This document shows, in pieces, positions 1-59,168 of a stretch of DNA of 64,000 bases. Positions within the stretch are counted from its first letter, which is position 1, and the number at the start of each line of letters is the position of its first letter. The stretch is taken from contig OZ020521.1 of assembly GCA_963971425.1 (NCBI GenBank), positions 8,883,519-8,947,518 on the forward strand. Reading direction: 5' to 3'. Both the position numbers and the translations under genes were made by a program. Source of the DNA: Bryoerythrophyllum caledonicum (lineage: Eukaryota > Streptophyta > Bryopsida > Pottiales > Pottiaceae). The notes beneath the pieces are model-generated. The model searched no databases and was not told the DNA's origin. It saw only the letters and a list, made by a program, of their open reading frames with translations.

Positions 1-3000
1 TTGGGAATTTGGTCAAACAATTAAGTCAAGGTTGTTTCTTGAGTGTAGTCTTTTGAGATATTTATCTAAGAAGCGGAAGGAGCCTTTGTCTGGGGTGGCT
101 TCTATAGAGGGCCACTCATCTTTCTTGAAATAGTATGGAGTGGTGTGTCCAAACTCGTGCGGATAGTTGGCATCTCTATGGAATAACTCCCTTCCTAATT
201 TGGCTAGATTGTCTGCTTCTTTGTTGCCATGAATGTTAGCATGGGCACGGACTTTGTGGAGAGTAGTGGTTCATGTGCAGGATGTAACATTTCCACCATA
301 GATGTTAATATAGTTTGGTCGGGGTAGGGGAGGATTGTGTTAGGTGTCTGCATAGTAGGTATAGAACATTTATAGAGTTTGTAAATACGTGTGTTGGTTC
401 ATTGGCGTATTGAGTTGTAATTTTTGTAAGGATTTTATGGAGGCCTATCATTTCGGCTCTATGGATATTTTGGAGTCCATGTAGGCGTTTGGATATTTTT
501 AAATCTTTGGCGGGGTTGTAGATACCACATCCAACTTTCTTCCTAATCCAGTTGCCGAGGCTTTCTTATGTAGGTGGTTTAAAGGATCCATCTGTATAGT
601 AACAATAAGTAGGATTCAATTTCAGAATGGTTGGAGTGTAGATAGGTAGGAATGGATATTGGTATATAAGAGTGGACTGGTGGGAGATTGAAGTATTGCT
701 TGTTGTGTTTCTTCTTTTGTGTAGGGTGTGCAGTATCATTTCTGCGCCATTTGTAACGGTAAGGGTTGTCGAGAGAAACAAATATTTTATCTCGTTTAAA
801 GAAGGAATGGAATTGAGTTAGCTTTATTGAGCATGTCATGAGGGATGAGAAGTATGAGTGTTGTATGTTAAAGGTTGTAATTAAGGAGTTTAGTATCAGT
901 GTGAGTAGGGTGAATTGTGCAAATTTTAAGGGGTTTTCTTTTTCAGATGCGGTATTTGTACCTTTGGTATAGCCAAACTACCTCAATTTCAAAAGATTTG
1001 GTGGCTAGTTCCATGTTTGTGGGAGTTTGTAGTTTAGTGTGGTATTAGTTCCAAAGCCATAGAAGTCTAGTGACAAGGATGGTAGAAAGGTGTCTACCAT
1101 TATCTTCGTAAATGTGTGTGTAGTTGCCATTTATTTTGATGGTGTTTTTTGAAGTGAGGATGTCATTTTGGGGGTTACATTCATTGAGGTTGATATACTG
1201 AGAAGGGGAATGGTTATGGGCGCTGTAACGAATCTAGGGTTTGCAAAATTACATTTCGGGGTGGTGTGCTTGAATGATTTTAGAGTAAAGTTGGTTTTGA
1301 GTGTTTTGGTAGAAATGTTTTATAAGGGAGGACTTATAAATGGAGGTATTACAATCATGCTAGAGAAAGAGGTTTTATTGTGGTAACGAGCTTTGAAAGG
1401 TGCTATTGTTGTGTTTCCATTGGCAGAGATAGCGGGAGTCTTTTTTGGTTAATTTGTTGCCATGGATGATTGTGGAAGATTCCTAGTCTATGATATAGAT
1501 TATGGGGTGGAGAATGGGTTTTTTTCAATGCATTGTGGGGGTTGAGGTAGAGGAGGATGTAGAGGGAGGGGAGGGTGGGATTTGAACAAGGGGTGGATGA
1601 TATTGTTGATGGTAGTATATTGGTCTTTTAACATGTAGGTGTCAGGGTGTGTATGGCATGGAATATTACAGGTGTATCAACATCAAAAATAGAAAAATAC
1701 TTGTTTGGCAATGTCAAGCGCACATTTATTAGTTTAGAGGGTGTGCCATGTTATATTTTGAAGTCACTATGGTTCATAATTTGTGTGCCATTTGGTAGTA
1801 AATTTTGTTTTAAGTCTGTCATATCAACAGAGAATAGCTTTGTAGCAATTGTTGGGATTGGAGTTGATTTTTTTTAATCTTGTTTTGGGTTTCTTGTAGC
1901 CATTTTTGTTCTAGGGGTGTGGGTTTCAGAAAGAAATCCTTATGTGTGTTTTTGAGGTGTATATTTGCTCTGTGTTTTAATAGGAAGAATGTGCGCGTGA
2001 TTGGTGATGTGATGGAGTCGACTTTCTTGATACGGGGAATGTTTTGTGATCAACCATATTTGGCAAGGATAAAGCATGTGAGGCCATTGTAGATTTTACC
2101 AAGTCATCATTTGTCGTTGAGTGTAGTTTGAAGTTATTCTCCAATACAACGGAGATAGGCATTGTAAAATCAAAAGGCTTCGAGGCCATATAAGTTTTGT
2201 GGAAGTTGTGTGATGGCGTTGGACATGCATTTGGGAAGTCTATATGTGGATTTTTGTATGGCAATGATTTTCTTGTCAAGTTTACAAATGGCAGGCATGG
2301 AATATGGTATTGCGTAGAAATTGTATGCTACACCAAGCCTTAGTGTTGTGTCTACCATTTTTATTTTTTGTTTCATGGTGACTAGGCATGTTAGGAGCTC
2401 ATTGCATTCTTTAATGAGTTTAGCGGGTGGTGTGGATTTGGCGTTTCCGTTTTAGGGTGGATACAACTCTTGACCTAGGTATATGTATGGTTTGTTTTGG
2501 TGTAAAATGTGAATGGGTTGATTGCGGAATTATATGTTAAATTTGAATTTGGGCTTTGAATGCGGCATGATTCATTTTGGATTTGTTTGGGTATCTAGTG
2601 ATTGGGCATTTTGGTAGGCGGAGATCCATACCCGACCATTCACAAAATTTGTCAACTTTGTTTAGTTGTATTTGAAGTGATTCGAGTTCAGTAGTAATAT
2701 TAGCTGGATCGTCAACATATGTGGCTAAGTTTATGGTGATTTTTAACGTTCCAATGATATAACCATTGTTGCCAAGTTGCAGCCATCTGAGTAGTGATTC
2801 TTAGAAGATGATGAATAAATATAGGCTTAAGGTATCACCTGATATGGTGCCACGTTGTATGGAGATAGGGCAATTTTTCCCAAAGTATTCACCAATGTAT
2901 GAAGTGGTGGATTGGGAGTATGTGTTACCAACTAAGGCTATTACGTCAGTGGCGTATCTAAGGTTAGCCATTATAGCGAAGAGCCCGGCGTGGTCAATGG

Positions 3001-3385
3001 ATCCAAACGCATTTTCAAAGTCAATGCATAGTGTATATATGTCTTGATTGGTAAAGCGGGTGTCTTCGAATGCACCTATTAGTGTTTGTAGTTGTCTGGT
3101 TGTACCACGTTCGATGCGGAAGCCTTCCTAGCTATCGTGGAGGATTTTTTACTTTTCTCCGTATGAGGAGAGGATGGATGTAAAGGAGCTTGTAAAAACC
3201 TCATAAATGGTGTTGGCTAGGGCAATTGGTCTATAATAAAAAAGGAAAGAGGGTTCACCTTTCTTGTATAGTAAAATTGTAGAGCTAGTTTTCCATTAGG
3301 CATGAATTTGTTTTTGTTTGTAACATTGGAAAGAGGAGGTAGTGGAATTCTAGGGGACATAAGTGTGAGGATAACGTTGGGAATT
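1..3385 (-). mobile_element. LINE copy A, truncated fragment
   Basis: Reverse-strand translation matches ORF2 of the LINE at 28655-35560. Around 2170-2376 the frame reads KQKIKMVDTTLRLGVAYNFY, like KIKMIDTVIRPGISYSFY in copy B, and around 570-605 it reads YCYYTDGSFKPP, the RNase H start (YYTDGSFKEP in copy B). Homology stops near 3385, at the part of the reverse transcriptase just after the KAPGPDHIP motif, so the copy lacks everything 5' of that. The other end runs off the window in the region after RNase H. Many stops and frame changes break it. No intact ORF remains; it is an old dead copy. Confidence 0.85.
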
Positions 3386-10420: not shown

Positions 10421-10528
10421 ATCTTGAATTTAAAATTGAAAGTAGAGAACATGGAAATCAATGTGGTATGTTTTATCTTGAATTTAAAATTGAAAGTAGA
10501 GAACATGGAAATCAATGTGGTATGTTTT
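10421..10528. repeat. Tandem duplication, two 54-bp units
   Basis: Units 10421-10474 and 10475-10528 are essentially identical (start ATCTTGAATTTAAAATTG). It lies just after TTAA copy 4. Confidence 0.9.
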
Positions 10529-14400: not shown

Positions 14401-15012
14401 TATGAAACTTATCTAATATATGGGAAGCATTACTCTTTAGTTAATTACAAAAATTTCTAAAATTTTGAATTATGACAAATTCTTACTTCTAAACTTACTT
14501 CAAATGAACTAATTCCTCAATATAGATTTTTAAGTATGTAAAAAACAATTCTACTATTCAAACACTTCAAAAACAAGAAACATATCTACCATATATTAGT
14601 CGTGAATATTTAAGAATAAAAGGAAAAAAAATTGGTACATAATCTCTAATAGTTGTTTTTGGATGTTTATATCATTAATTTCTCATTAATGTAGAGGAGT
14701 TTGATTATGGAATTGTGCAAAAGATTCAATTGGCTTTAGGTGATGAACATGGAGATGCTTCATGGGAAGAATTTAGACTTTGTCGTGAAGCACTTAAGGG
14801 TCATGATGGTAAATGTTGCTTACAATATGAATCCATGTAATGTTATAGTTTAATTTCTATACAATCATTTAACTCATCAAAACAAAAGAATTATAGATAT
14901 AAAATCTCAAAAATTATAATATAAAAAATAAAAGTAATTCAACTTAAAATGAAATTCGTCTAAAACAAAATCTTAAATCAACCTCAATTTAGTGTTTAAA
15001 AATGAATATATA

Positions 15013-15072
<60 letters not shown>

Positions 15073-24899: not shown

Positions 24900-26191
24900 A
24901 TGAATGAGAATGCCCTTTTTATTGCTAGTACCACCCAAAAAAAGGTGAAGGCAACAAGTTTGCCTCACACCGAGTATTGGTTGGGCTTTCGCTCAATGAA
25001 CACAATTGCAAAGAAAAAAGGTAGCCCTAAAGTACCAATTGTTCCATTGGAAGAATTGGTGAAATTGGGTATAAACACAAAGGAAGCAGCTGAAAACGTG
25101 GAAGCCATGCCTTCCTTCCCGTTTGTTTCCCAAAAAGAATGGGCGACTACAAGGGCTGATGGAAAAATGGGCAACCATTTCAATCTCACCCAACTTCCAA
25201 GTGAGGTTGACGTAGATAACGATGGTTTTGCCCTAGATTACCAAGTCTCAATCCACTTTGAACTTGGTGATCAAATATGGACAAAAGATATTGTGCTAGA
25301 AATGACAAAATCAAGGCTCAAAGATATGAAAATCCCTATTAGGACCCGCATCGGTGAGCCAATAGCAATCTTTTGTTACCATCAGTCCGAAAATTGGAAT
25401 GGGGTCATCAAAATACATCTAAAAAACCCAGAAGTAGATGGGAAGGGATTGTTGCAAGGGTTGAGGCCCTTCATTCTTATCTTGAATGAAGGAATTCCAC
25501 ATAAAGGGAAAGTATGCAAAGCATACGACGCCTTGGCCTTTTCACACCTCCTTTCGGTAAAAATATCTGGTCCCAATTTAGTTAATAGGGAACCATATGA
25601 CCTACATGCCAAAATTGTTAGTGATAGTTTTGCAAGAGGCTATGACTTCGAGTAACTGGGGTAGAGAAGAAGAGTTTTTCTGAATTTGCATGGGTCAAAA
25701 TCCCCTCCCCGGTACAAGCGGCCAAAGTAAAGGACTACAAAGTCTCATTCAATAATGAGATATTTGAGCCAGTCTTCGCAACCCGGAAGATGGATGAAGA
25801 TGAGATTGCAAAAAAGAATTGCCTAATTCTTATTGCAAAAAACCTTAACAAAATGAAAAGTGAAAAAAAACTAGCAGAGGGAATCAAATCCATACTTGGG
25901 GAGGAGAATGTGGTTGATACATTCTTCAAACTCAAGCATGGGCGCCATGTTGGAACTTGCAACATTGAGTGTCTAAATGCAGCAGTGTATAAAAAGTTTG
26001 TCAAACAAAGTAAAAAACTACATGGTAAATACATCATGTTTTCTCCTCACCCAAAGAGTTTAGATGGGAGTAACAAACCAAATGTAGATGAATTCACAAG
26101 GCTAGGATTCACGGATGTAAACTCAGCCGTAGCGAACGCAGTAATTGCCATGGAAAATGGCCCAAACAACGGCAGCCCTACAACAACTTAG
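24900..26191 (+). pseudogene. LINE copy B ORF1 (RNA-binding-like protein)
   Basis: Frame 24900-25655 encodes 251 residues starting MNENALFIASTTQKKVKATS. A second frame, open from about 25650 to 26191, continues the same kind of protein, so one frame change near 25655 breaks it. Total about 430 residues. The C-terminal part (LILIAKNLNKMKSEKKLAEG, then NVVDTFFKLKHGRHVGTCNI) has the look of an RRM-like fold, which is common in LINE ORF1 proteins that coat element RNA. No zinc knuckle is visible. The position upstream of ORF2 on the same strand fits a two-ORF LINE. Confidence 0.6.
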
Positions 26192-26491
26192 GAGGGAAAT
26201 GAAGACTATGAAAAGGAGAAATCGTGGAAGAAGCAAGACAATATGCGGACTTGGTACAAGCTAATACCGTCAAATCTCTAAAGGGGGAAATGTCCACTCT
26301 TAGATCTCAACTCATTGCTACTATCATGGCGGCCAAAACACAAGCATTGGAAAGAGAGCAAAGAGCCATTGAAAGCAAGATGGACATGTCAAACTAATAG
26401 CGTCAAACAACGCTACAACTAAATACACCATAGTATATATATATACTACTAAAATACATACTAATAACATCCAAAATATGTATAACAAAAC
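26192..26491 (+). other. Spacer between ORF1 and the TG...CA insertion
   Basis: Remnant coding to about 26395, then AT-rich DNA. ACCATAGTATATATATATAC near 26428 resembles ACCATAGTATATCTACATAC near 28283 on the other side of the insertion, an older short duplication in the LINE. Confidence 0.5.
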
Positions 26492-28255
26492 TGTAAGGTT
26501 TGGAACTTGGGTCGACTTACAAAACATCCAGGCTACACCCAACGTTAGGTTCGTTCTAGGGGATAATCTGGCGTCTAGTCTTAGGTAGTTATCTCTAATT
26601 CCACTAATAAATGTGTCGATTGTTGTTGGCTTTAAGGTTTTGAAGGTAAAAGTGTATCTATAACCTACACTCTTAAGGATTTTTACTTATTACTCTTATA
26701 CCCACAAGCATGTGCAATTATGACGTGAGCCTTGCTCATTGTCATTATTCTGTGAAGTGCCCATCGACTTCTAACCTATACCCTCATGGGTAAATGGATG
26801 CTATCCATTTGGTACTCATTGCCAGTTCCTTAATTAATTCAAGTTAATCAACCACAATCTAACCTCTAGCAATGAGCTCCACGCTTCCTTATGTCTTCAC
26901 TTTATACTTCTCGTCATCACACCTTTAAACCACAAGTTAAAGCACAAACAACACACAAGGAATAATTCACACTATTCTTTAAGGTTCAAAGTGTTAAGTC
27001 TAACTCTTGACTCAAATAACTAGTTGTATTATTATCTCTTTTGATTAGACTTTGTATACTTTGAATACTTCTTAATAACCAACTTTTATTCCTTTGTTTA
27101 ACTCTAACTTATTTACTACACTATTATCCTTCGTATACTATCACACTTTCTAAGGATATTCTTGTAATATAAATCTTGATCGATTCTACTACTTAGCTAG
27201 TCTTAAAGATCAACTTTAAACACTACTAGACTTTTGATCTAAAATTTACAATTTAATTACTAGACTCACAAGTCAATGTAATTTCCATATTATGTAATCA
27301 ACTCAACCATATGTTGATCAAACATTAATAATCAAAATTATTAAGTTTCAAATTAATATTGCATTCATAATTGAAACTTCAATTCTCATGAATTCCAATT
27401 CCAATGATTCTGAATCACAACTTCAAACAAACATTAATTCATCACATACATAATGCATTTTTTATTGAAATTAATTATATGCAATTTACAATTAATTTTA
27501 TTTCTGATTGCAATTAATTTCACTTCACTTCTATGCATCAATTGTCTTGCATATTTTTTTTTTATATATTTATTTTATTTATTTTTTATTTTTTACAATT
27601 TGTTCACAAATTGGTACTGTAGATATTCAATTTCTACTCTAACCGATTTCACTTCCAAAATTCACAAATTTAATTTATTTATTATAAATTCTTTTCTAGT
27701 GAATTTTGTAATCTCATTACAATTCTTCTTCACATTTAACTTCCACAATTCATAATTTTGAATTTAATTCTTTATTTAATGTGTCTTATTACACATGAAC
27801 AATTTCATACAACAATTACAATTATGTAGCTAGCAACTCGTAGACTTACACACAATTCAATAATTAAATATATTTCAAACAAATTTCTTACAAATCACAT
27901 GTAAGAATTCTTACTAGCTTCAATCCAAGCTAGGACTCACATAGTTTTCTTCAAATGCGGTGTGATCATCATCACTTTCTATTCACTTGTACTATCTAAT
28001 TATGAAAAGGTACCACTTCTCCTAATGACTTTTCCTATCACCTCTTTTGTTTAATTTCAAAACCTTTTCATATCATTAGGAGTTATGTCCTTTCTTCATA
28101 TCTTTCTAATTCTATTTTCCATTTACTTTAGTAATTTCTATTTATTTTTAATTTTACTTCTACTTTTACTTTTACTTTATTCTTTTGAAGTTGTTTCTAT
28201 AGCTTTTGAGCTCTAATTTTTTGAAATTTAACAACTTTATCATTTTGGCTCTACA
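26492..28255. mobile_element. TG...CA insertion, probable solo LTR, in LINE copy B
   Basis: Starts TGTAAGGTTTGGAACTTGG, ends GGCTCTACA, and is flanked by AAAAC at 26487-26491 and 28256-28260. It is 1764 bp and AT-rich, with no coding capacity that I trust and no internal LTR pair. TG...CA ends with a 5-bp duplication and no internal region fit a solo LTR. It is the youngest layer of the nest. Confidence 0.7.
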
Positions 28256-28311
28256 AAAACATATACTATAGGGAAAAAACATACCATAGTATATCTACAT
28301 ACTACAAAACA

Positions 28312-28537
<226 letters not shown>

Positions 28538-28650
28538 AAAACAAAATACAAAAAGATAAGAAAATATAAAAATATAAGAAGAACAAAACAACAACAACAA
28601 CAAATCTCCACACCCCTCCTACTAGTAACCATAAACATTACTCATTGTAA

Positions 28651-28696
28651 ACTATTGATTACACTTTGCGGAGACATAGAAACTAACCCCGGCTCA
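28651..28696 (+). other. 2A-like motif at the start of LINE ORF2
   Basis: The ORF2 frame reads CKLLITLCGDIETNPGS just before the first ATG (about 28697). The 2A consensus is D(V/I)ExNPG followed by P; here the last residue is Ser instead of Pro. The frame is open upstream through a hydrophobic stretch (TPLLLVTINIT) and a short CAA run. 2A-like sequences at LINE protein N-termini are known in several clades. In this copy it should not skip properly, if skipping ever occurred. Confidence 0.65.
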
Positions 28697-30109
28697 ATGC
28701 CAAATGCCTTCCACAACCATCCAAAAACACACAAAAGAGTATCAAAAATATATTTCATTCCGAATACTATAAAACTCCACCCCAAATATCAACACCTAGC
28801 ATCTTCCTTTGCACCACTTCCAAAAAATAATCACATACTTCACCAAACTTATGCTACCCTCTACCCCAACATTTCCAGTTACATTTATAAAAAAAACAAC
28901 CACCCATCCACACATATCTTATTCGCCATAATTACCACCCTCCACCCTTCAATAGACGAATGCAACATCACCAACCAGCACCCTACCAACACAAATCCAA
29001 CACACTGGACAAACATATTACTAAACACCCTATCATCTCTAAATAACCCCCCCGAAAGACATATAGACACACCCCACCCGTACACCAAATTCCTAGAGAC
29101 AAATCAACACCTAATTGAACATAAAACCTCTCTACACAATGACCTATATAACTTTATTCATAGCCAAACCCCACCCCCTTCCCCCGATGAACTAAAACTA
29201 AAATTTCCCTACTTCCCGTACAATCTTATCTTTGAAGCTCTTAGATGCTTTGAACCAATTCATGCTTACACGCACCACACCCCGACACCCGCCTACATCT
29301 CCCCTCTATTTCGTAACCACGACAATATAGACAATAGAAACACATATATAACTACATGGAACGCCTCAACGTTAAACACTGCTTTACCATGCATCCACAA
29401 TCTAACCGCCTACACCAACACACCACCCGCCATAATTGCCATACAAGAAACTAAATTAACCGCTACTAAATCCACAAAATATATCCAAAAAACATTCCCC
29501 GATTATAAACTTATATTTAATAACACTCACTCTCTCACACGATGCATCCAACAACGAAGGCCATATACACCGGCAAGAAGAGGTTTACTCATGCTCATAC
29601 ACCAATCATATGCCTTCCCCGGGAATATTACTAAAATCCTCACCCCGGCTAACATATCACCATATCTCCAAATTATTGAAATTACTAATCGACCCCTCCA
29701 ACCATGGCTCATTCTTCATCTATACATGCCCTCGCACATAGAAGACTCTAGGCTTATCCCGGAGATACAAAATTCCATCACTTCACAAATAAATACACAC
29801 ACTAACCATACAATAATACTTTGCGGAGACTTTAACCGAGACATCGCCCTTATAAGACGACAAAACGGAGGGGTTTTTACCCCCCCACTCGACATAGACT
29901 ATCAATGGCAAAGTTATACGGACGAACTAGAATTACACTTAGTCCCAACTGATACACAATACTCTCGCCAAGGTGGACTTAATTACACACATACTAGCCT
30001 AATTGATGGATTTTACATTAAAACACCTAACCATACTTGATATACATCTATCACCAACACTACAACCAACTTGAACTCGGACCACTTCCCAATCCAACTC
30101 AATACCTGA
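28655..30109 (+). pseudogene. LINE copy B ORF2, AP-like endonuclease part
   Basis: This part encodes the nuclease that nicks the target. The motifs come in order: TTWNAST (start of the domain, about 29350), QETKL (metal-binding Glu, about 29445), LCGDFNRD (about 29820), SLIDGFY (about 30000) and LNSDHFPI (about 30075). The frame is open from 28655 to a TGA at 30038-30040 (HT*YTS) and meets a second TGA at 30107-30109; both probably replace Trp codons. Homology to the family continues through both, so they are lesions and not natural ends. About 210 residues precede the endonuclease and are Pro/His/Thr-rich without a recognised fold. Confidence 0.8.
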
Positions 30110-33100
30110 CAACACCCTTAAAAGTAGACCTCCCACAACCATCAGCTCAAATAATATTAAAATACTAAACCCCATTCCAAAAGAAAACCTTGAGAACTTC
30201 AATACGACATTCTTTGAAAAAAATTCACTATTCATAGACTCCCTTATAAACACTCTTTCTAACAACCAACACCTCACACACATACAATGGCAAGAAGCTT
30301 GCACGACTCTTGACAAACTTATTAATGAAATTTCTACTACACTCGAAAAGACTTGTAAAGCGCCTCCAACCCCACAACTCACACCTAGAACCTCAAAACA
30401 AGGGGGGTATCTCCCGAGAAAACTAGCCAAAAAGTGGAAACAACACCTTGTCATATACCACACTATTCGTAAAACAATCTATATTGCTAAAACTAACCAA
30501 AATTGGCAAATCCACCCCATACTCTCCAAACTACAAAACCTCCGTCACCCTCGAATTCCACAAGTACCACTGTCCAATACCCCTCACGAAGACTAGCTAA
30601 AAGACATTGCAACCATAGCAAAAACTGCCAACAAAGAAGCTCGGAAAATTACTACAAAATATGCAAGAGAATGTGTCAAAAAAGACATTTCTAAGTACCG
30701 TCAATTACACGAAACTAGCCCAAAAAAGATTAATAGAAAAGTCTTAAAAAATAACACAAACCTGCCACTAGACTGCATTTTAGATCAAAACAACAACATT
30801 CTAACCAGCCCAGACGACATTGCAAACGAAATACATTTTCAACAATCCATAAACAATAGACCAACCACCCCCCCATGTCACTTCCAACCACAACATACTT
30901 TAACATGCACATGCGGAGTTAGGCAATACCCGTGGCATGATTTGGATGGATTTACCATTGATAAAAGAGGCGAACCAACAACACCTCTCCACACATATTA
31001 CAACAGAGACACATACAACATGTGCCTAAAAAATTTGGGAAACAACAAAGCACCTGGCCCGGACCACATACCTAACTCAATTCTAAAAAACATGCCCCTA
31101 AGATTCCACGACCTTCTAATATTATTCTTCCTTAATTGTTACAAACAAAAATCCATTCCCACATCTTGGAAAACAAGTTTAACAATCTTATTATACAAAA
31201 AAGGCAACCCATCCGTGCTACCTAACCACCTACCTATTGCCTTAGCTAACACCATTTACAAACTATATACTAGCATACTAACATCAATACTATCAGACTA
31301 CGGAGAAAATCACCAAATATTACACGAAAGCCAAGAAGGGTTTAGAGCCGAGAGAAGTACCACAAGGCAACTTCAAACCCTCATTGCCGCTCTTGAGGAT
31401 GCAAAATTCATTTATAAAGACATTTACATACTCTACATTGACTTTAAAAACGCATTTGGCTCCATTGACCATCCTCGATTGCTAGCCATTATGAGCGATC
31501 TTGGATACCTAGAAGACGTAGTCACACTGGTTGGCAATATATACTCCCAATCTACCACTACATACGTTGGAGAATTTTTTGGTAAAACACACCCTATCTC
31601 CATCCAACGTGGTACCATCCAAGGCGATACACTGAGCCCATACCTCTTTATTATTTTTCTAGAACCTCTATTGAGATGGCTTCAAAGAGGCAATAATGGA
31701 TACACATTTGGCACCTCAAAAGTCACCGTAAACTCAGCAGCATATGCCAACGATCTAGCAGCCATCTCAGAACGTCTCAAATCACTCCAAATTCAATTAG
31801 ACAAAATAGACAAATTTTGTTTATGGACTGGGATGGAACTTGGGGTCCAAAAATGTGCCGGAACTGGATGCCCAAACAAATCCAAAATAAATCCGACCGC
31901 CTTCAAAGCCCATATCCAAGCTACCAATATCCACTATCGTAACCAACCAATTCCGGTACTCAACCAAAACCAACCCTATATATACCTTGGAATAAACCTA
32001 GTCCCATTGTTAAAATGGAAAATCCAAACTCACATTACTGCTACAAAACTTATTAAACAATGCAATGAACTTACAATATGTCCGGCTACATTACAACAAA
32101 AAATAAAAATGATTGATACCGTCATACGACCGGGTATCTCATATAGTTTCTATGCGGTCCTTTATTCCATGCCCGCCATAAACAAACTTGACAAAAAAAT
32201 CATAGCCATACAAAAAAAAGCATGTGGACTCCCTAATTGTATGCCTAATGTCATCACACAACTCCCCCACGAATTATTTGGATTAGAAGCTTTTTCCCTC
32301 AAAAATGCCTATCTACGTTGCATTGGAGAACAACTCCAAAATGCACTTAACGACAAGGGACGACTAGGACTAATTTACAATGGACTCTTCCAGCACATCC
32401 TCGCCATTTATGGAGGAGCACAATACCTCCAAAGACTTAAAAAATTTGATTGCCTTTGGTCTCCTATTACCCGCACACTTTTTCTACTCAAAATAGAAGG
32501 CCAAACATTTCTAAAAAGCACACTAGAAAATTTTCCACTAGGCCTCGCACCACTTGAACAAAATTGGGCAAACGAAATACATAACCTCTCTAGACTTGAC
32601 CGACAATTATCCGCCAAACTCCTACAAAAACTTTTCTCCGCAAACATTACCAATCTAAAACAAATTACACTACCAAATGGAACACAACTTATGGACAACA
32701 AGAGCTACAAAACATTCAACGGTACCCCTCACAAATTAATAAAAAGTGCACTAAATATTGCTAAACAATTATTTTGTCAAACGCCATGCCTCCCTGTATG
32801 CCCAAACCCGTGCACTACTCACGCCCCACCTTACACACTCAAAGACCCATACATCATTGGTCAAAATGACATCCACCCCAACATCAAACCCCCATTAATC
32901 CCTCCAAACCCGCCACATTCACGACCATACGCCCCTCCACCACATATATTTAAAAATCCTTTCATGTACCCAATAAACAACATAACCGCGCACAAACATA
33001 GAAAGTACATTGACTCTAACAACATAAGCAAACGATACACGTCATACCTATGCCATTGGCCCCACAATAACACTACCTACACCAAATGGCTCCCGCAAAG

Positions 33101-34451
33101 AAATCTTTTCCCTTGGCACAACCAAAACGCTTCCTTACATAACACCGAAATCCTCACACAATACTACCTTAGAACTCAAAACAGTTATTACTTGAATATC
33201 ATACAATTACACCACCCCCAAGTACAACCTCGAGATAGAAGATCCGTCACGCCACCTATTAGTATCCCCCTCCTTAACATCTTTACAACCGAATGCAACC
33301 CCGAAACTGACATCCTCACACAAACAAATACAATCAAAATACAACAAGATAATGCCCACATATACGAAGATAATGGTAGACATCTAATAACCATACCACT
33401 TGCTAGACTACAATGGTTGTGGAACCAATATCACAATGCATTACAAACCCCCATTAACATTGAACCAATACCCCAAACATTTGAAACCGAAATTGTTTGG
33501 CTATACCAAAGATATAAATACCGAATACCCAAAAATGACCCCCTTAAAAATGCACACTACATACTACCAGATCCTATCTTAGACTACTTTATTACATCTC
33601 TAAATATCACACATTCATACTTCTCATCCCCCGTCACATGCTCCACAAAAATCTCAAAATTCTACTCTCCATTCGAACGTGATAAGATTTTTGGTTCTCT
33701 TGGTAAAACTTTTGATTATAGGTGGAGTGGAATAGGCCTTGCACATCCTCGCAACGAAGAAGAAATACAACAAGCAACACATTGGGCACGCCTAGCGGCA
33801 AATAGTGATCCTAACCATAACATTACCATTCTTATCACCCCCGATACTCATTGGTACCAAAACTCTAACCCACACTTAGGCCCATTCCCGGACTCTCACA
33901 TCATAGTACTATTTGAAGCGGACTCTATGACTTACAAAGAACCCACTATACCACCACAAATACAAACACCTCGCCTTGAACCATCAACCCTATGTATTCT
34001 ATGTATTCATCACCAAACCCGAAAGATAGGTACTCTAGAAAGCCTCAATCATCTCACTTTGATAGCAAAAAGTCTAAACATTAACAAAGTATACACCGCA
34101 ATTGCCCCTCCCACACCTACTTCAATCCGTGTACACCGTAACAAAAAATGGTCTAAAATCCCCCACACAAACATCTCCGCACTACCAGCTACCAAACTGA
34201 GCCTCCCACTCCCCAACTACCAAATTAATACCGTCCTTAAATTTGATTCCAACTTTAGCTACTATACTGACGGCTCCTTCAAAGAACCAACCGAAGTAAG
34301 CCTGGGACATTGGCACCGAGAAAAAGCCGGTTACGGGGTATACAATTCCACCAAACAAATTAAATTAGGCAAAAGATTACATGGACTCCAAAATATTCTA
34401 AGAGCCGAAATGATGGCAATACTCAAAACCCTTAGGATAATCACCACTTAA
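30110..34451 (+). pseudogene. LINE copy B ORF2, linker, reverse transcriptase and RNase H start
   Basis: After one frame change near 30115 and a TAG at 30594-30596, the frame is open from about 30600 to 34451. The reverse transcriptase core lies at about 31040-31900: NKAPGPDHIPN, LYIDFKNAFGSIDH (first catalytic Asp), RGTIQGDTLSPYLF, and AAYANDLAAI. The last should be YADD or YVDD; here AAC at 31749-31751 gives Asn in place of the first Asp, so the enzyme would be inactive. A connection of ~700 residues follows, then RNase H begins near 34255 with YYTDGSFKEP and RAEMMAIL. A TAA at 34449-34451 interrupts it. Confidence 0.85.
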
Positions 34452-34835
34452 TATCCAAACGAACAGGCTCACATTTTTACAGATTGCATAAATGTATTAT
34501 ATCTCCTTAATACACACATAAAACACCCCACTTTACATAACAGTCACCCGAACAAAACTATCCTCACATCTATGGTTTTAATGTTCCAAAATTGCACACA
34601 AATTACTACACTCCACAAAGTTCGAGCTCATGCTAATATAGTCGGCAATGAACAAGCTGACAAACTAGCAAAGGAAGGAAGAGAAAAAACCCACAAGAAT
34701 GCCGAACACACATACAAACACGCCCATGCCACCCTATACTACTTTTATAGAAATGAATGGCTTTCTATGGGCGAAACTCCCGATAAAGGCCCCATAAGAT
34801 TCTTGGACAAATACCTCAAAAACATGATCTTGTAA
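34452..34835 (+). pseudogene. LINE copy B ORF2, RNase H second half
   Basis: In the same frame after the TAA: AHIFTDCINVLYLL (third Asp) and KVRAHANIVGNEQADKLAKE (His/Asn...Asp end of RNase H). RNase H removes the RNA strand after cDNA synthesis. The domain places the family among RNase H-bearing LINE clades rather than ordinary plant L1. The frame stops at 34835, where homology moves to another frame. Confidence 0.8.
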
Positions 34836-35560
34836 ATAACCTGGAAAAACTTACAGAAAACTTCCCCAATATTGATAAATGGACCGGCAATCCAAACATT
34901 CACAAAGTACTGTCCAACAATTTTTGGAAAAATCCCATAATTACGGACTCGCAAATCACATGCCTAATTAAATTCCGCACAAGACAATACATGGGAAATG
35001 CTGGCAAACAACTCTTCTTCAGAATTGAAAGATTTCTCACAATAACATGTCCAATTTGCAATACCACGGACCCGGACACATGGCTACATGTCTTACTCAA
35101 ATGCCATAACCCCCACATACACTCACTAATTGTCAAAAGACACAATAAAGCCATATGGGCTATTCGTAAACTACTTGTATAATCAACCAAATCCCAGTGC
35201 TTCATTCTCATGAATGCCGAAACATTTAATGACAACCCACAAGAAAATACGGTCCCTCCTTGGCTACTACCATGCATGTGTTGCACTCAAAGATGCCAAT
35301 GTAATACAAGATTCAAACCCGACGTGCTATGTGTCAGAGGACTATCATACAAAGACCCCCCACCAAACCACATAGACCCTAATCTCACTATTCAGTTTAT
35401 TGAATTCACATATTGCAATGATAGATTCTCTCCGGACACTATTGCAAACAAATCAAATAAATACCAACCACTACTTGACGATATACAAGCACTAGGATAG
35501 AAAGTTGACTCCCTTATTGTGATCACCGCGGGTGCTAGAGCCACCACCATCATCCCTCAA
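34836..35560 (+). pseudogene. LINE copy B ORF2, zinc knuckle and restriction-like endonuclease
   Basis: The frame reads IKFRTRQYMGNAGKQLFF, then CPICNTTDPDTWLHVLLKC with a CCHC knuckle, then KRHNKAIWAI, RFKPDVLCVRG, IQFIEFTYCNDRF, NKSNKYQPLL and LIVITAGARAT. RH(N/D) after the knuckle, then PD, then E, then KxxKY is the known signature of the restriction-like endonuclease of R2-type elements. A TAA at 35180-35182 and a TAG at 35498-35500 (a Trp codon in copy C) break it. Copy C preserves the same block (IQFIEFTYCDDRF, NKIEKFQPLI), so the domain belongs to the family and is not a chance reading. Confidence 0.75.
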
Positions 35561-35956
35561 TGACTACCCTTGAAGAAACATTTAAAATCCCCATTACTTC
35601 AATCCAAACCACTTTTTCAAATATAAACATTATTGCAATTCAACATGCTATGTCAATACTATTGCATAAACGAAAACTTGAAAACAACCAACCCCTTCCT
35701 GATGCTTCAAACCCCCTTCTATAGACTAACATTTGCATTTCATTACACACACCCTCCCTTTTTTGGTGACTTTTTGGGACCCTGGTCCTTTATTCTTGGC
35801 TACTTGTGCTGGATACATAGTGTCTATCCTCGAAAGGGGGAAGTAGTTCCATGCTACTTACCCATGCTCGGTGGGCATGGACTTAGTGGTGGAATGAACG
35901 GACATTCTATTCACGCCGGCCCCATATTTTTGGAGACCGGCATTCTTCTTCTTCTC
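35561..35956 (+). other. 3' region of LINE copy B
   Basis: Contains QFNMLCQYY-type coding remnants, then the block CATAGTGTCTATCCTCGA and AGTAGTTCCATGCTACTTA shared with copy C (59025-59070). It ends in a pyrimidine run, CATTCTTCTTCTTCTC, with no poly(A), directly at the target duplication. Confidence 0.6.
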
Positions 35957-35968
35957 TGGATGACTCCG

Positions 35969-39276: not shown

Positions 39277-39544
39277 TATTAGAGATTAAAGTTGCTTGTT
39301 GTTATTATGATATTGTAAATAGTTGAGGTAAATTTAGAAGGGAAAGTAAAGGGGGAGAAAATGGAGAGAGGTGATACGAACTTAAAATAGTCCCATATGT
39401 ATTGGCGGAGGTAGTTATCAATCGGTACTATAAGTGACGACCTTTGAAAGAAGGCCATATCTCACTCCAAGCATTGTTTGTAATACCTTGTGTATTTCAT
39501 TTGTATGTGCAATCATCATTCTCAACTTCTTTTGAATCTCAATA
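39277..39544 (+). repeat. 3' LTR of the Copia element
   Basis: Starts TATTAGAGATT (TG altered at this end) and ends TCTCAATA, next to the ATATT target duplication at 39545-39549. The LINE copy C sequence resumes immediately. Confidence 0.85.
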
Positions 39545-40344
39545 ATATTCAACCAACAAAAAAAAAACCCACGGTACCTACATGTAACTACCAACCACAA
39601 CACCCAATAAAATGCACATGTGCAGTACGACAATATCCATGGCATGACCTTAAAGGATTTACTTTAGACATAAGAGGCAAACTCAAATCCCACTATACAC
39701 CTACTTCAATCAAGTCACATATGACACATGCCTTCAAAATCTTGGAAGTAACAAAGCCCCAAGGCCAGACCAAATACCAAACTCCATTCTCAATCATATG
39801 CCTCCTAGATTCTATAAACTCCTATTCCTCTTTTTTTCTCATTGCTACAAATAAAAATAAATACCTAGCTCTTGGAAAACTAGCGCAACAATCTTATTAT
39901 ATAAAAAGGTGACTCCTCGATGGTATCAAACCAAAGACCAATTGCTTTGGCTAATACCATCTACAAACTCTATATAAGCACATTAACCTCTATACGATCT
40001 TCATACGGAGAAAAATAAAAAATCTTACACTATAGTTAAGAAGGATTTAGGGTAGAAAGAAGCACCTTCACACAAATTTAAACCATTATAGCCGCGTTAG
40101 AAGACGCACGCTTTACAAACCAAGACATATACATTCTATATAGGGGCAACTAGAGCTAGGGTTAGAAGATAAGAGATAAAAAATAATCAAGGCTTATGTG
40201 GGAGCATAGATTTCAAAAATGCCTTTGATTCTATCGACCACACTCGACTATAGCAATAATGACCGACTCTGCTACCAAATGGATGCAACTGCACTTGATG
40301 GTAACATATACTCTCAATCTTCAACCTCATACATTGGTGAACAT
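39545..40344 (+). mobile_element. LINE copy C, piece 2 (start of RT region)
   Basis: Encodes CTCAVRQYPWHDLKGF (CTCGVRQYPWHDLDGF in copy B) and continues to TTG GTG AAC near 40340. A short extra segment, about 40143-40205, is absent from copy B and contains AGCTAGGGTTAG; it looks like filler DNA from a repaired break. Many stops. Confidence 0.8.
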
Positions 40345-43300
40345 TGTTGCAGTTTGTAGGATCAATATTCCTCCGGAAGGCACTTAATTGTCACTAAATG
40401 CTTCCAAAGTAAACCGCTCCGGTTTCGTTCCCAGAAAAATCTATTGTTCTTCTCAAAACATCCAACAAAACTAAACTACCAATTAATCATTCATGGGCTA
40501 GCTATTCTATTCATACACTTACTACAGATTTGGATCCTTCCAAATTCTGGATTCATACAATGGCTTCCGGAACTAGTTTTTGGACAACCAGAGGATAGTT
40601 TGATTTATCTTTGTTCCTCCTCAGAAAGTCTTCCGGACGGTTTAAACGAGTGACCGGAAGGCCATTGATCCTATTTTGTGTAAGTGGCTGGATTCCCCAC
40701 TACCTTGTGACTTTAAGTGTCTAGACACCCACTGCCCCGGAACTTATAGTGGTTGGACACCCACTCTCCCTACTCCGCTAACCGGTGATTGATTGCTGCT
40801 ACCAGACTTAGAAAGAACATCTCTGCAGTTCATCTCTTCCCCTCCTGGCTTCTTCCGGATTTTGGAGACTACGAGGAACACCTCTGCAATACACCTTCAG
40901 CTCTTCTAGGCGTTCTCCAAATGCAGGTCCCAATCGGTTTCTCTCTAGAAAATAGGATATCACTCTACTTCGAAAGAATTCTTCCACAACAATACGTACT
41001 ACAATGGATCCGTTACTTACAAAGGCAACACTCCACACCACAAAAACTACGAAGCAAATCTAGCAAAAGGTTTGAAATGTATTCAATGTAAGAAATCAAG
41101 ATCATGAGTTTGCTAAAACTCATTTAATAAGTACTAACTAAGTTTCCTAATCTTACTATTACCCAATCCGCGAGTAGTCCGGAAAATCTAATCCTAAAGA
41201 AAATCTTATCCCTAAAGATCCGGAAATTCGAATTTGAGATCCGAAAATTATGGATCTCATATCCGGATTTTCCGCCGGTCAAAGAAGTTCAAGAATTTAG
41301 TTAACCTAAGGGTTGGTAGCCGGGTGCAATCATGAGCCCCATCGTTTAATCGCTACAAAACCTAAACAACTGGAAATTCTAACTGTAACTACGGAGTCTT
41401 TTTGTTCCGACCGCTCCTCCGTACTAGAGATGCCTCCATCGTCTCCGTCCTCCTGTCGGTCTTCTTCGGCCTCCTGTCGGTCTTCTCCGGAGTTGGATCC
41501 GGTATTTGTCTGCTTTCGGAAGCTGGGGTTTCCGGCTCTGGTAGGTCGAATGAGGGTGCCGCATGAGTGGCCTTCTCTACCGTGCCGGTTGTGGTCCCTA
41601 CCGCGGTCTTGGGGCTAGAGGTTCCCTCTAGATGACCCCTGGACAGTGGGGAAGTCGTCTTCCGGCCGGTGGAGGAGGGGGAGGAAAGAGGTATCCGGAA
41701 GGGGTCCCCTGAAACAGTGGTGCCGGAAGGGGGTTCTTCTTGGCCGTCTCCGGACTGTTGTGAGGAGCCTTGCTCCACGGTCCGGGTGAAGCCGCATCAC
41801 GTGTGCGCAAGGCCTCATCCATCGGCCGCTTACCTTTTCTAGTAGATTTCCAGGCCTTGATGGTTAGGCTACATCCGGAGACGAGTCGAGGTCAATGGGG
41901 GAATTTGGTGCCATCAATTCCTCTCGGACCACGATGCTTGCCGCGTTGCTGGCTAGCAGTTGCATTTGCTCCCATGTCTTCTCCATCTTCTGGGCGTGGT
42001 TCATTAGGAACCGAATGATCTGTCCACGGTTCACTTTATCTTCCTTCTCTAGACGCTCGTTGAAGAGGAGGCTCTAGTTGACTGTGTTAACCAAAAAACT
42101 CAGTGCCTCTCGTACTTCCCCGAGTGCTTGAGCCGATGTGGTAGCCATGACCTCCGCTTCCTTCTGGTCTACTTGCGCCTTTGTCAACGCGGCATTCGCG
42201 ACTGCCAGGTCCTGTTGCAGCTTCGCCCGGGCTTGGACTACTGGCACCTGCTAATCCTCGATCACCTGTAACCGGATCTCGACATCCCGGAGGCTCCTTA
42301 ACCGGGGCATGATCTCCGCTACATCTTTGATCCATTTCTCATCCATGAGCTCTAATATCATTGCCGAATTGTCGGAAAGGTGTTGATTGATTAGCGTGGC
42401 CCTCCAGTCTACGTGCTGGAGTAACTCCATCATGTCTTCTATGTACTTCCCGGTGAGCTCCGGAGGTTCGGGAGTCGGACATCGTTCCGGTCGCCAGGAA
42501 GGACCTGCCACATCCAGGTCGTCGGTGGTTGTGTCCATCCGTATTGGTGGAGACTCCGTTGGTGCCGGTTCCGGCTGCACTGATCAGCTTCGCTACCGAG
42601 CCCAAGGGATCTCGGCCGGAGGTGGCTGCGCATCTTCCGTCTCCTCCTCCGAGTTGGTCTCCATCCCGCCGTACTTCTGAATCGTCAGAAGTTCCTCGTA
42701 TTTGTCGTGCACCTCCGGCTTCAGCACTTCGTGCCGGAAATAAAGGTAGGTCAAGTAGGCCGAAAGTGGTGACCCAACCTTCTTTGTCCGGTGGAGACTC
42801 TTGACCAACCTCTCCACCAGGTCTTGCATGAGCGACGACCAATCTACGGTGATTTTTCCCCGCATCGCTCCCAAGAAGATGCTCGCCCACTTGAGCATCA
42901 CTCGCTTGGGCTTCTCCGGATGGAAGATAGGATTTGGAAACCCTATCACGATCCGGGCTTGAGGATTGGTGAGATCGCTCGTTGTGAAGCCGTCCTTCGA
43001 GTCGGCATGAATGTGGAACTCCCCGTCCACGATGTCGTCTTTTCGCTCCGCCACCTTGACGTCTCTGTCCTGGAAGCCGTATGTCCGCTTCCACTCTAAC
43101 CGGGTCCACTTCTCCGGATGCACTCGGAAGCTCCCGTCGTATTGGTTGTCGGGGGTCCCGATCAGCTCCGTCTCCACCCTCTCGTCCTTTGTTCCCGATG
43201 CCGCTTTCATAAGACCGGAACACCCCATCTTGTTTAGGAAGTGGAACAAGACATGGAGGTCCTTGTCCTCCGTCAGATACTCCGGCTCCACCTTCAGGAT

Positions 43301-43898: not shown

Positions 43899-44030
43899 AG
43901 ATTTTGGAAAAACTCGATCCATCCCATTTCAAAAGAAGAACCATAGAAGGAGATACTCTTAGTGCATACCTATTTATTATATTTATAGAACCATTATTAT
44001 GATGGTTGTAAAGAACCAACAATGGCTATA
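43898..44030 (+). mobile_element. LINE copy C, piece 3
   Basis: Aligns with the copy B RT segment that reads RGTIQGDTLSPYLFIIFLEP; here ATAGAAGGAGATACTCTTAG and CCTATTTATTATATTTATAG are readable with decay. Bounded by the two TG...CA elements. Confidence 0.75.
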
Positions 44031-45977: not shown

Positions 45978-47179
45978 CTATACTTTTGGTACATTACAAA
46001 TCACCATAAACTTAGCCGCCTACGTTGATGATCTAGCCACCATGACCAGTAAGCTTAAATTGCTACAAATACAGCTTAAAAAAAATCTGCGAATGGACCG
46101 GTATGGACGTTGGCGTCCCAAAATGTGCCGCCACTGGATGTCCAAATAAATCCAAGAAAAATTAAACTTCATCAAAGCCCTCATGCAAGCTACAAACATC
46201 AACTATCGTAACCAACCAATCCCTATATTGCATCAAAACAAACCATATGTATATTTGGGCACAAACCTCGTCTCCTCATTAAAATGGAAAATCTAAATTC
46301 ACATTACAACCACAAAACTTATAAAACAATGCTAAAAATTAATGTGTCTGGCAAATATGAAACACAAAATAAAAATGGTTGATATGATAATACGACGAGG
46401 CGTATTGTACAGTTTCTACATCGTACAATACTCCATGGCAACTATTAAAAAACTTGATAAAAATATAGTAGCTATACAAAAAACCATTTGCGGCATTCCA
46501 AAATGTATGTCAAATGCAATAATCCAACTCCCACATAATTTATTTGGACTTGAAGCTTTCTCCCTCAAAAATGCATTCCTCCAATGTATAGGTGAACAAC
46601 TCCAAAATGCTCTAAATGATAAGGGCACAGTTGGAAAGGACTAATCCACTTTGTCCTTGCCCAATAAGGTGGTGCCAAACATCTACCTAAAATTAAGAAA
46701 ATCGATTGTATAAGATCATCAATAACTCGCACATTTTTTCTATTATAAATGAAGCTAAAGTTCACTTAAACAACACACTTACAAACTTTCTCTCAGAACC
46801 AACACCATTAGAAAAAAATATGGCACGGGGAATCAGAGAACCATAATACACTCAATACGCAAGTCTCCCAAAACTTCTACAAAAACTTCTTTCAAAAAAA
46901 ATATCCAACTTAAAACAAATCACCCTACCAAACAAAATCCATGTCATGAATAATGAGGATTTCAAAGCCTTCCACTTTACGCCATCAAATTTTTTTAAAA
47001 AGTGCCGTCAATGTTACTTAACACTACAAGAACCATTCATCACCATCAACAACAACCTCCCTAGAAATATTCCCCTACCAACCCACCCCCAAGCCTTTAC
47101 AACAATACCAATCTCCCCCCCAATACACATCATTAAAAATCCTACCACAGATTCCATCAACAACATCATCAGGATTGTT
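45978..47179 (+). mobile_element. LINE copy C, piece 4 (RT end and connection)
   Basis: Reads LAAYVDDLATM near 46015 (the RT active site in good form, unlike copy B), KIKMVDMIIRRGVLYSFYIV near 46365 and FGLEAFSLKNAFLQCIGEQL near 46545. It runs to the 9-bp duplication of the Mutator-like element. Many stops elsewhere. Confidence 0.85.
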
Positions 47180-56218: not shown

Positions 56219-59168
56219 AGCATCGTTGACAACATCATAAAAAATAATGATGCCAAATATTTATGCCAATGGCAAACAACAATAGTACCTACAACAAATA
56301 ACTTCTTCAACAAAACCTCTTCCCATGGCATGATCGTAACACCTCTATCCACAATACCAAAAAACTAACACTTTGTTATCAAAGAATCCAAAATAAACTC
56401 TATTTGGAGATTATTCAAGCACACCACTCCCAAAAACAACCCCAAGACCCGAGATTTGTAACACCACCCACAATTATCCCTCTCTTAAACATCTATTCAA
56501 CGGAATGTAATTGTGAAAATAACATCCTCACATCATTCAACACAATTAGAGTAAATAACGACCAAGCATATCTTTACAAAGACATTGGTAGACATTTATT
56601 CACCATTTCTATCACTAGACTCCAACAGCTATGGAAACAATACAATATAACACTATAAACTCCTACAAACATTTAACCAAGTACTCAATCATTTGAAACC
56701 GAAATAATTTGGCTATATCAAAGATATTAATACCGAATTTCAAAAACAACCCCTTCAAATTTACACAATATCCACACTACCCACACCCATCCTAGACTCA
56801 TTAATTCTACCCTTCAACATCCAGCATTCATACTTTTCATCCTTTGTCATATACTCCACTAAACTCACAAAATTCTACTCACCTTTTAAAAGGGACCAAA
56901 TATTTGGTTCCTTGGAAAAAGCTTATGACCACAAATGGATCGGTAGTGGTATAACACACCTCCACGATGAAGAAGAATCACAACAAGCACTACATTGGGC
57001 CCGTCTTGCCGCCAAACACGATCCAAACCACACCTCTACTCTCATTATCACAGCGGACAACAATTGGTACCATAACTTTAACCAACACTGAGGTCCATTT
57101 CCAGACTCCGATATCAAAGTACTATTTGAAGCAAATTCACTACCATACGAAGAACCTACTATTCCATCCGAATTCAAAAAGCCTTGGCTTGAACCATCTA
57201 CATTACAAATAATTTGTGCCCATCACCAAAATCAAACCATTGGCACTCTAGAACAACTCGCCGCACTAACCTCCATAGCAAACACTTTAAATATACATCC
57301 ACTACACAAATAAATAACCCCACCTACACCCATCAAAACCTTAGTAAATTGTAACAAAAAATGGTCAAAACTAAAATACATCAACAATACAATAAACTAC
57401 CTCAAAACACCTCCCCTCTCCCTAACTATCAAACACACAATCCTCCTAAATTTGACCCAGCATATAGCTACTACACCAATGGATCCTTTAAAGAGCTAGA
57501 AGAAATTAGCTCTAGAAATTGGCAAAGAGAAAAAGCTGGATATGGTATATACAACCCTACTAAAGAAATTAAATTAGCCAAAAGACTCCATGGACTCGAA
57601 AATCATCACAACAAAATGCAAATTACAATCCTTCCTAAAGTTAGAGCTCATGCCATTATAGAAGGAAATGTACAAGCCGATAAATTAGAAAGGGGGGAAG
57701 AGAAAAATCACATTAAAATGCTGAACATCCATACAAACATGCCCACGCAACCCCATACTATTTCCAAAAAGAAGATTTGCCCTCCCAAGAAGCCACCCTT
57801 AACAAAGGGCCCCTTCAAATTCTTGGGCAAATATCTCAAAAAACAAGACCTCAACAACGACCTCAACCTAATCTCAGAAAATCTCTCCAACATAGGAAAA
57901 TGGATAGGCAACAATAATATAGACAACGAACTCCCTACAAATTTCTAGAAGAATCCCAACGTCTCCAACTCACAAATAACATGCCTTATCAAATTCTTTA
58001 CTGGCCAATACATAGGAAATGCCGGCAAACAACTCTTCTTCGGAATAGAATGATTTCCATCAATAACATGTCATATATGCCCCTCCACAGACCCACGCAC
58101 ATGGTTCCACGTTCTACTCAAATGCCAAAACCACCACATACACTCCCTAATTGCCAAACGACATTACAAAGCGGTATGGAAAATCCAAAAATTAATCACC
58201 TCCTATTCTAAATCCCAATGATTTATACTCATGAATGGTGAAACCTTTAACAAAAACCCACAAGAAAATACGGTCCCCCCTTGGCTACTCCCATGTACAA
58301 GAAGACGAAGAAGAACGTTGGTCCTCAAAGGGGGCCCGGCGTAAATAAAGTGTCTATTCGTCTCCCATGTACATGTGAAACTCAACGATGTCATTGTAAT
58401 GCCCAACTCAAATCGTACATACTTTGCATTAGAGGGGCCTACCATACAATGATCCCCCACTCGACCACATAAACCAAGTCCTCACCATTCAATTCATTGA
58501 ATTTACATACTGTGATGACAGATTTTCCCTAGAAACAATTAAAAACAAAATAGAAAAATTCCAACCCCTTATTGAAGACATCATAACACTCGGATGGAAA
58601 GTGGACCCCTCATTGTCATCACTAATGGCGCTCGTGCGACTACCTTCATCCCTTCCAAGAAAATCCTTGTAGAAACTTTTAAAATCCCCACTAATCTATC
58701 TAAAAATACCTTCAAAAATATTAACACCATTGCAATTCAACATGCTATGTCCATACTACTACATAAGTGAAAAATTGAAAACAACCAAGCCTTTCTAGAC
58801 ATTCAAGACACCCCATAAAATCACACCTACCTCACTCTACTTACCTTCTCTTTCTAGCCCACCAAATACTTCCTACACTACCTACATCCTATAATATAAT
58901 ATATATAAATAAATAAATAAATAAAAATTTCTCCTTCCTACCCTTCTGCACTTTCCTCCCTCCTCTCCCTTTGCCTTTGTTTCTCTTTGTTACGATTGGT
59001 TTTTGTGTGTCTAGGTTTCCGGTTTCATAGTGTCTATCCTCGAGAAGGGGAAGTAGTTCCATACTACTAATTCCTTGTTTGGTAGGCATCGTCTTAGCCG
59101 TAGAACGATCAAACATTTTATCCATGTTGGCCTACTTTGGGGACTGGAGTTCTACTTCTTATTACCAA
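56219..59168 (+). mobile_element. LINE copy C, piece 5 (connection, RNase H, RLE, 3' region)
   Basis: Reads QAHHSQKQPQDPRFVTPPTI (56416 on), the RNase H start YSYYTNGSFKELEE (57460; the catalytic Asp is Asn here), KVRAHAIIEGNVQADKLE (57640), and a restriction-like endonuclease block, IQFIEFTYCDDRF with NKIEKFQPLI, near 58485-58570. An (AAAT)n run lies at 58895-58925. The 3' end shares CATAGTGTCTATCCTCGA with copy B and stops near 59168. The CCHC/RHx segment at 58060-58200 is present but decayed. Confidence 0.8.

Follow-up and report, generated by a model that had tools for sequence, protein, structure and literature searches.

A decayed LINE ORF2 in the window

The window analyzed here is a stretch of 64,000 nucleotides from Bryoerythrophyllum caledonicum (GenBank assembly GCA_963971425.1, contig OZ020521.1, positions 8,883,519 to 8,947,518 of the forward strand), and its principal feature, at 28.67-35.72 kb on the plus strand, is a decayed copy (copy A) of the second open reading frame (ORF2) of a long interspersed nuclear element (LINE) with two nuclease-like regions. 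An earlier note on this DNA had described, at 28655..35560, an ORF2 with an N-terminal apurinic/apyrimidinic-like endonuclease (APE), a reverse transcriptase (RT), an RNase H and a C-terminal restriction-like endonuclease (RLE). The location was right and the end was set too early: ORF2 homology reaches ~35715 and the 3' end lies at 35953-35955. On translation, the motifs TTWNAS, QETKL, GDFNRD, SLIDGFY and SDH, the RT and RNase H, and the series CCHC, KRHN, KPD, IEF and NKxxKY were all found where they had been claimed. The parts listed were sound and the list was incomplete, as a 2A-like peptide, a chromodomain-like block and a PCIF1-derived block had been overlooked. Compared with an intact copy, copy A has 63-76% amino acid identity, with a match that spans amino acid (aa) 740, in the 2A-like peptide, to aa 3086.

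The N-terminal part of this ORF2 is open for 602 aa from stop to stop (28232..30037, on the plus strand like all of the coordinates that follow here). Within it lies the 2A-like peptide GDIETNPGS at 28670..28696 (GGDIETNPGP in intact relatives), which was supported by a genome-wide count of coding sites. The APE-like endonuclease occupies 29339..30100, with TTWNAS, QETKL, GDFNRD and SLIDGFY before the stop at 30038 and SDH past it, and is followed by the RT core at 30957..32039, in which the motif YAND stands where five of five intact or near-intact copies have YADD. The chromodomain-like block (32994..33122) has no PF00385 match in copy A and draws its support from other copies. The PCIF1-derived block has its best stretch at 33471..33767 within wider homology at 33324-34136, and reads AHPR in place of NPPF. 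RNase H (34242..34694) contains the stop at 34449. The CCHC knuckle and putative RLE, at 34790..35715, were recognized by ordered motifs using the criteria in the accessible part of PMC5678591: the CCHC from 35048, KRHN at 35135-35146, KPD at 35315-35323, IEF at 35399-35407 and KX2KY at 35450-35464. A 3' untranslated region (UTR) with a (TTC)n tail and without poly(A) completes the copy (35716..35955).

Copy A is disrupted by stops at 30038, 30594, 34449, 35180 and 35498, plus frameshifts. In Pfam scans of it, only RVT_1 (PF00078, E 6.6e-23) and PCIF1_WW (PF12237, E 9e-8) exceeded the cut-off; RNase_H (PF00075, E 4.3e-5) fell just below it and Exo_endo_phos (PF03372, E 0.0014) was also below. 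Upstream, at 24972..26239 (+), the C-terminal half of an ORF1 remains, as identified by tblastn with an ORF1 from one of the intact families described below (fam4; E 6e-51; 36% and 24% aa identity), and a Pfam scan of 24900-25652 in that region returned no family.

Several features of composition were observed around copy A. The N-terminal open frame begins shortly before an (ACA)n microsatellite of ~81 units (28304-28604), which is read within that frame as poly-Asn, and the sense strand of 28000-36000 is rich in A and C (GC skew to -0.58, AT skew +0.26). Such a strand makes long open frames upstream of the 2A peptide likelier by chance. An 11-bp repeat, GACTCCGAAGA, is present at 24030-24040 and 35962-35972, near both ends of copy A; as a target-site duplication it is possible but weak; it does not start at the tail, and we do not claim it as one. 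A copia-like gag (judged by eye) begins right after its 3' occurrence.

Two further copies of the same LINE are present. Copy B, at 25..3332 on the minus strand, covers RT to RNase H and continues beyond the window edge. Copy C, on the plus strand, can be read as a single element broken into four pieces that together cover aa 1460-3087 of the reference, in order and with gaps: 39544..40345 (aa 1460-1706), 43910..44029 (aa 1709-1748), 45979..47169 (from aa 1748) and 56236..59160 (aa 2204-3087 with gaps; the RLE block and 3' UTR belong to this piece). Copy C carries the same C-terminal block as copy A with different damage, as had been pointed out in the earlier note. The segment at 10001-18000 is unlike the remainder of the window in its low GC content (24.5-26.2%) and contains short tandem repeats.

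Intact families elsewhere in the genome

The host genome (437 Mb in 894 contigs) was searched for the PCIF1_WW domain (best 150 places scored of 2614 first-look candidates), for the RLE region with a query of 298 aa (132 places scored of 9208 candidates) and for the APE (150 places scored of 3876 candidates). The pairing counts that follow are lower bounds, as they cover best-scoring places only and, for PCIF1_WW, the first 108 of the 150. Among the 132 scored RLE places, 41 were identical to the query, and all 41 had a same-strand APE at a distance of 5.5 kb upstream, with PCIF1_WW in between, which bears out the proposal that both nuclease-like regions belong to the family. Thirty-three of the 41 lie within a frame of 3087 aa. 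Overall, a scored APE partner was found for 59 of the 132 RLE places, and for none in the opposite-strand control.

Two families with intact open frames, fam8 and fam4, allowed the architecture to be read without mending. In fam8 the ORF2 of 3087 aa is open in many copies (at least 33), and five copies are 99.99-100% identical over ~9.8 kb in the 7 of their 10 pairs for which the comparison was read. This is the most uniform family seen, though its 9.9 kb are without an ORF1, and its base composition is 38% A, 27% C and 12% G. The four copies of fam4 (13.55 kb) are related to copy c4 at 99.4-99.5%, with an additional 2.4-kb 5' piece at 95% in copy c2; c4 has an open ORF2 of 2881 aa, which stops interrupt in the other three, and the ORF1 frame runs uninterrupted for 1337-1462 aa in all copies but c15a, in which it is broken. 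The element is abundant and apparently recently active in the host genome. Relatives were sought in collections of viral contigs and genome contigs and none was confirmed.

These copies have the same arrangement that the earlier note had read from the window, with an APE and an RLE-like region flanking the RT and RNase H within a single protein. The full order in ORF2 is 2A-like peptide (GGDIETNPGP at aa 738 in fam8), APE-like endonuclease (960-1212), RT (1500-1860), chromodomain-like block (~2180-2222), PCIF1-derived block (2315-2560), RNase H (2595-2745), CCHC knuckle (2864) and RLE motifs (2893-3002). A Pfam scan of the whole fam8 ORF2 at E <= 1 listed only the RT, PCIF1_WW and a weak chromodomain, leaving APE and RNase H unlisted, and the corresponding scan of fam4 listed both of the latter, the APE below the cut-off and the RNase H at 9.7e-13. 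The presence of several broken copies in the window, and a locus (c8) that looks like an element within an element, might suggest that an APE-bearing LINE and an RLE-bearing one, lying side by side or nested, had been read as one. That explanation is refuted by the 33 copies with both regions in a single 3087-aa open frame, and we give it practically no weight against a single element encoding both.

The ends of the element were examined in nine copies, all of which terminate in (TTC)n without poly(A). For the flanks, eight of the nine were used (four of fam4 and four of fam8, with c8b left out), and 12-14 letters were common to both flanks in all eight, part of which may be tail; in 56 mismatched cross-pairs no more than 8 letters were shared. 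By eye, the insertion sites have no evident common sequence.

The streptophyte host on which the earlier note had made an extension of the known layout depend is borne out by rbcL, which is of land-plant type, and the designation of the host as a land plant is well supported. Of the three contigs with rbcL, two were read; each is of land-plant type by eye and has accD as the next open frame. Their rbcL-accD sequences differ (contigs C821 and C894), which points either to another plant in the sample or to a plastid copy that has diverged. PF01000, a family that includes plastid rpoA and other RNA polymerase subunits, had the best of its three matches on a large chromosome and none on the rbcL contigs. 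Mosses have typically lost rpoA from the plastid, which would fit a moss host; as the rbcL contigs may be incomplete, this narrower placement is a guess.

Predicted catalytic regions and additional blocks of ORF2

PF03372 matched the fam8 APE segment alone over the cut-off (E 2.9e-6), the best match of the APE profile in the PDB was exodeoxyribonuclease III (E 3e-4), and the APE motif set is complete in five of five ORF2s. When segments were scanned alone, PF00075 exceeded its cut-off in three of three other copies (E 2.1e-14 to 2.3e-14, with fam8 at 2.3e-14); copies L042 and L041 fail the RNase H motif pattern, yet are over the PF00075 cut-off. Among solved chains, the RT profile scored highest with three R2 chains (112-115 bits), followed by 8c8j (72 bits), which we take to be human L1 ORF2p, and silkworm R2 (48-52 bits). 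As judged by profile comparison, this shows the RT to be a LINE RT, and the scores do not place it among the clades.

The hallmarks of a LINE RLE are a CCHC knuckle, RH, PD, D/E and KX2KY, according to the accessible part of PMC5678591. In the element, KRHN, KPD, IEF and NKxxKY follow a CCHC knuckle in that order in six of the six alignment rows that span the whole region, and PD, E and KX2KY are kept in all eight rows that cover them (the L044 and window rows being read through stops). The E follows the D of PD after 26 intervening residues. Shuffling the same 298 aa 20,000 times never produced the ordered set including the knuckle, and none of 79 background open frames (at least 100 aa) in the window contained it. 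The shuffling result is partly post hoc because the knuckle pattern was widened from X7-8 to X7-10 after the sequence had been seen; a test of the motif core without the knuckle, which gave 24 of 20,000 shuffles, is cleaner, with gaps likewise set with the sequence known. In addition, residues 932-972 of R2Bm, presumably the region preceding the R2Bm nuclease, were drawn in via the RT and align to the knuckle and RHNK of the element, at a score (-2.7) that is not significant. By its motifs, position and selection the C-terminal block looks like a restriction-like endonuclease.

Selection was assessed by the ratio of nonsynonymous to synonymous substitution rates (dN/dS) in five intact or near-intact copies, three of which have one internal stop each, compared in six non-independent pairs; the pair of copy A and fam8 was left out, its dS being saturated. 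The ratios were 0.060-0.122 for the APE, 0.060-0.094 for the RT, 0.060-0.097 for the RLE, 0.058-0.157 for RNase H and 0.131-0.175 for the PCIF1-derived block, with 0.078-0.145 for the chromodomain-like block in the four pairs that were computable. Purifying selection has acted on each nuclease region about as strongly as on the RT over the time that separates the families, and these low ratios are the strongest evidence that neither nuclease region is decoration.

The blocks that had been overlooked were characterized in the same copies. The 2A consensus is D-[VI]-E-x-N-P-G-P, and other non-LTR (long terminal repeat) elements are already known to carry 2A-like sequences. The peptide GGDIETNPGP of fam8 and fam4 fits this consensus, copy A reading NPGS at its end, and exact protein-level matches to the motif were found at 772 coding sites genome-wide with varied codons, versus none for a reversed control pattern. 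Some variation was seen around it: in fam4 ORF2 a stretch of ~60 aa has apparently been duplicated in tandem, so that both RRDIETNPGP and GGDIETNPGP are present, and in fam8 a perfect motif is accompanied by a degenerate one. The leader upstream of the 2A peptide in intact fam8 copies is Thr/Asn-rich and of low complexity.

The block between the RT and the PCIF1-derived block is a probable chromodomain. Consistent with this, all 12 matches of its profile in the PDB at E <= 10 were chromodomains (best 0.051); two ORF2s scanned whole gave a weak chromodomain match at E 0.12-0.13. The PCIF1-derived block was identified by PF12237, which matched the fam8 segment over the cut-off (E 1.5e-12), and the block of a diverged relative aligned with human PCIF1 through the catalytic site (E 4e-4). 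NPPF is the catalytic motif of PCIF1. In that alignment human EANPPF stands opposite LAHPHT of the element, and NPPF is absent from all nine rows examined, in which the A, H and P at the equivalent site are invariant and the element reads AHPH or AHPR. Because NPPF has been lost, the block is probably a binder and not a methyltransferase. The best PF12237 place in the genome (59 bits) is a copy of the LINE itself; no cellular PCIF1 gene outscored the elements among the 150 places scored of 2614, and introns could hide one.

Proposed working and relation to known LINEs

We interpret the element as an autonomous non-LTR retrotransposon of the Dualen/RandI type in a land plant, and hold this reading with good confidence. 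In the cycle that we propose, the 2A peptide would split the variable leader off during translation and the ORF2 protein would bind the 3' end of its own RNA. One nuclease would then nick the first strand and so prime reverse transcription; this is most likely the APE because insertion does not look site-specific. The RLE would cut the second strand or resolve a branched intermediate, and RNase H would clear the RNA. Tethering of the complex to chromatin is the probable task of the chromodomain-like block, and the PCIF1-derived block probably binds RNA, perhaps at a capped 5' end, without methylating it.

An alternative is that only one of the nucleases is catalytic and that the other, of which the RLE is the likeliest candidate, has been retained for structure or for nucleic acid binding. 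The lack of an evident site preference in insertion fits first-strand cutting by an APE, and there is a precedent in Prp8, which has an RLE fold whose residues apparently do not coordinate metal, as stated in the part of PMC5678591 available to us. The retention of PD, E and KX2KY in every row that covers them, and the similarity of the RLE dN/dS to those of the APE and RT, speak against it, and we judge it rather unlikely. Division of labor between two working nucleases remains our preferred proposal. A bolder one is that the element represents a distinct land-plant dual-nuclease lineage, very abundant in its host genome, in which a captured chromodomain would pick chromatin, a dead cap-methyltransferase-like domain would grip the capped 5' end of the element's own RNA, and APE and RLE would split first- and second-strand cutting. 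We advance it tentatively, as a possibility that we regard with some doubt.

A number of results weigh against the Dualen/RandI reading. The profile search of the C-terminal segment that the earlier note had proposed for R2-type nucleases returned no significant match among solved chains, with profiles of either 5 or 10 rows. AlphaFold2 models built on rows from the window only were unusable, at a predicted local distance difference test (pLDDT) of 42.9 for the RLE and 29.8 for the chromodomain-PCIF1 region, and the sole Pfam match of the RLE region was DUF3501 at E 0.032. The knuckle is CX2CX9HX4C versus the published CX2-3CX7-8HX4C, so that none of the 10 rows (four of them partial) fits the strict pattern. 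PF00385 reached E 0.007-0.059, below its cut-off, in three of five copies scanned as segments and was not matched in the other two. The RT is without a clean affinity to R2, silkworm R2 scoring below 8c8j, and a scan of two ORF2s and one ORF1 detected no protease family at E <= 1, though a divergent one is possible. Lastly, the likeness to Dualen rests on the reported domain set, by description rather than by sequence, and the strand served by each nuclease is something we infer.

Since neither the profile search nor the structure model gave support, the RLE assignment rests on ordered motifs, position and selection. This lack of support, with a knuckle spacing that is off by one, is what would be expected if the C-terminal block were no nuclease but an unrelated conserved domain carried by a LINE of the APE type. 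We consider that improbable given how seldom the ordered motifs arose in shuffled sequence, the R2Bm alignment, which is weak but falls at the corresponding place, and the position of the block, C-terminal and after a knuckle, as in R2-type LINEs in the accessible part of PMC5678591. The DUF3501 match and a terpene synthase match (E 1) of the region were taken as chance.

The results for the RT and the protease bear on another explanation, in which an RLE-type LINE gained an APE and RNase H itself, or the reverse, and the likeness to Dualen is convergent. Favoring such an independent lineage are the three R2 chains as best RT matches, the extra domains, which are not known for Dualen, and the failure to find a protease; Kojima and Fujiwara reportedly described Dualen in 2005 as carrying a cysteine protease. 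Set against this, silkworm R2 reached just 48-52 bits. The same four core domains are reported for Dualen (PMC4640811, PMC3636483; accessible parts), and the tail of the element is a non-A 3' repeat, such as is described for all eight green-algal RandI families in the part of PMC3747384 available. Two independent gains would also be less economical, and we find an independent origin unlikely compared with membership in the Dualen/RandI type.

As a rule, a LINE has a single nuclease, and the means by which the second target strand is cut are unsettled, especially in APE-type LINEs. Because both nuclease regions of this element are similarly constrained in one protein, the role of each is testable by single-residue changes. 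The element also shows a LINE fused to PCIF1-derived and chromodomain-like modules. In searches of the open literature, including the accessible parts of PMC5348765 and PMC6338049 but few subscription papers and not Repbase, we found no description of such a LINE, and none of a land-plant host for Dualen/RandI. The dual-nuclease domain set is known; relative to Dualen as described, what we did not find described are the land-plant host, the PCIF1-derived block and the chromodomain-like block.

Among known systems, R2-type LINEs resemble the element in providing its top RT matches among solved chains and in the CCHC, RH, PD, D/E and KX2KY motifs, and the element differs from them by its APE, its RNase H, the lack of evident site specificity, an X9 knuckle and a low RT score with silkworm R2. 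With LINE-1/I-type elements it shares the N-terminal APE, the lack of an evident site preference and short flanking duplications, and RNase H is present in the I group and in plant L1 (PMC4640811, as far as accessible); those elements are, however, without an RLE, and the tail here is (TTC)n and not poly(A). In PCIF1/CAPAM the core around FASPLNC...FGS-G is recognizably the same, whereas the element has AHPH/AHPR for NPPF in a block fused within a LINE polyprotein. The closest resemblance in domain content is to Dualen/RandI, which combines both nucleases with RT and RNase H in one element; the earlier note had named it as the exception in having both nucleases, and it is the one group reported with both in the accessible parts of PMC4640811 and PMC3636483. 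Dualen/RandI is reported from Chlamydomonas and other green algae (PMC8226300 and PMC3747384, in part) and appears as an annotation label in cryptophytes (PMC12747079, in part). The element has its APE, RT, RNase H and, by motif only, its RLE, together with a non-A 3' repeat, and differs from Dualen/RandI in the land-plant host, the PCIF1-derived and chromodomain-like blocks that separate the RT from RNase H, and the 2A peptide. Compared with Dualen by description, we class the element as one that would work like it and is probably a member, as a new variant with captured domains.

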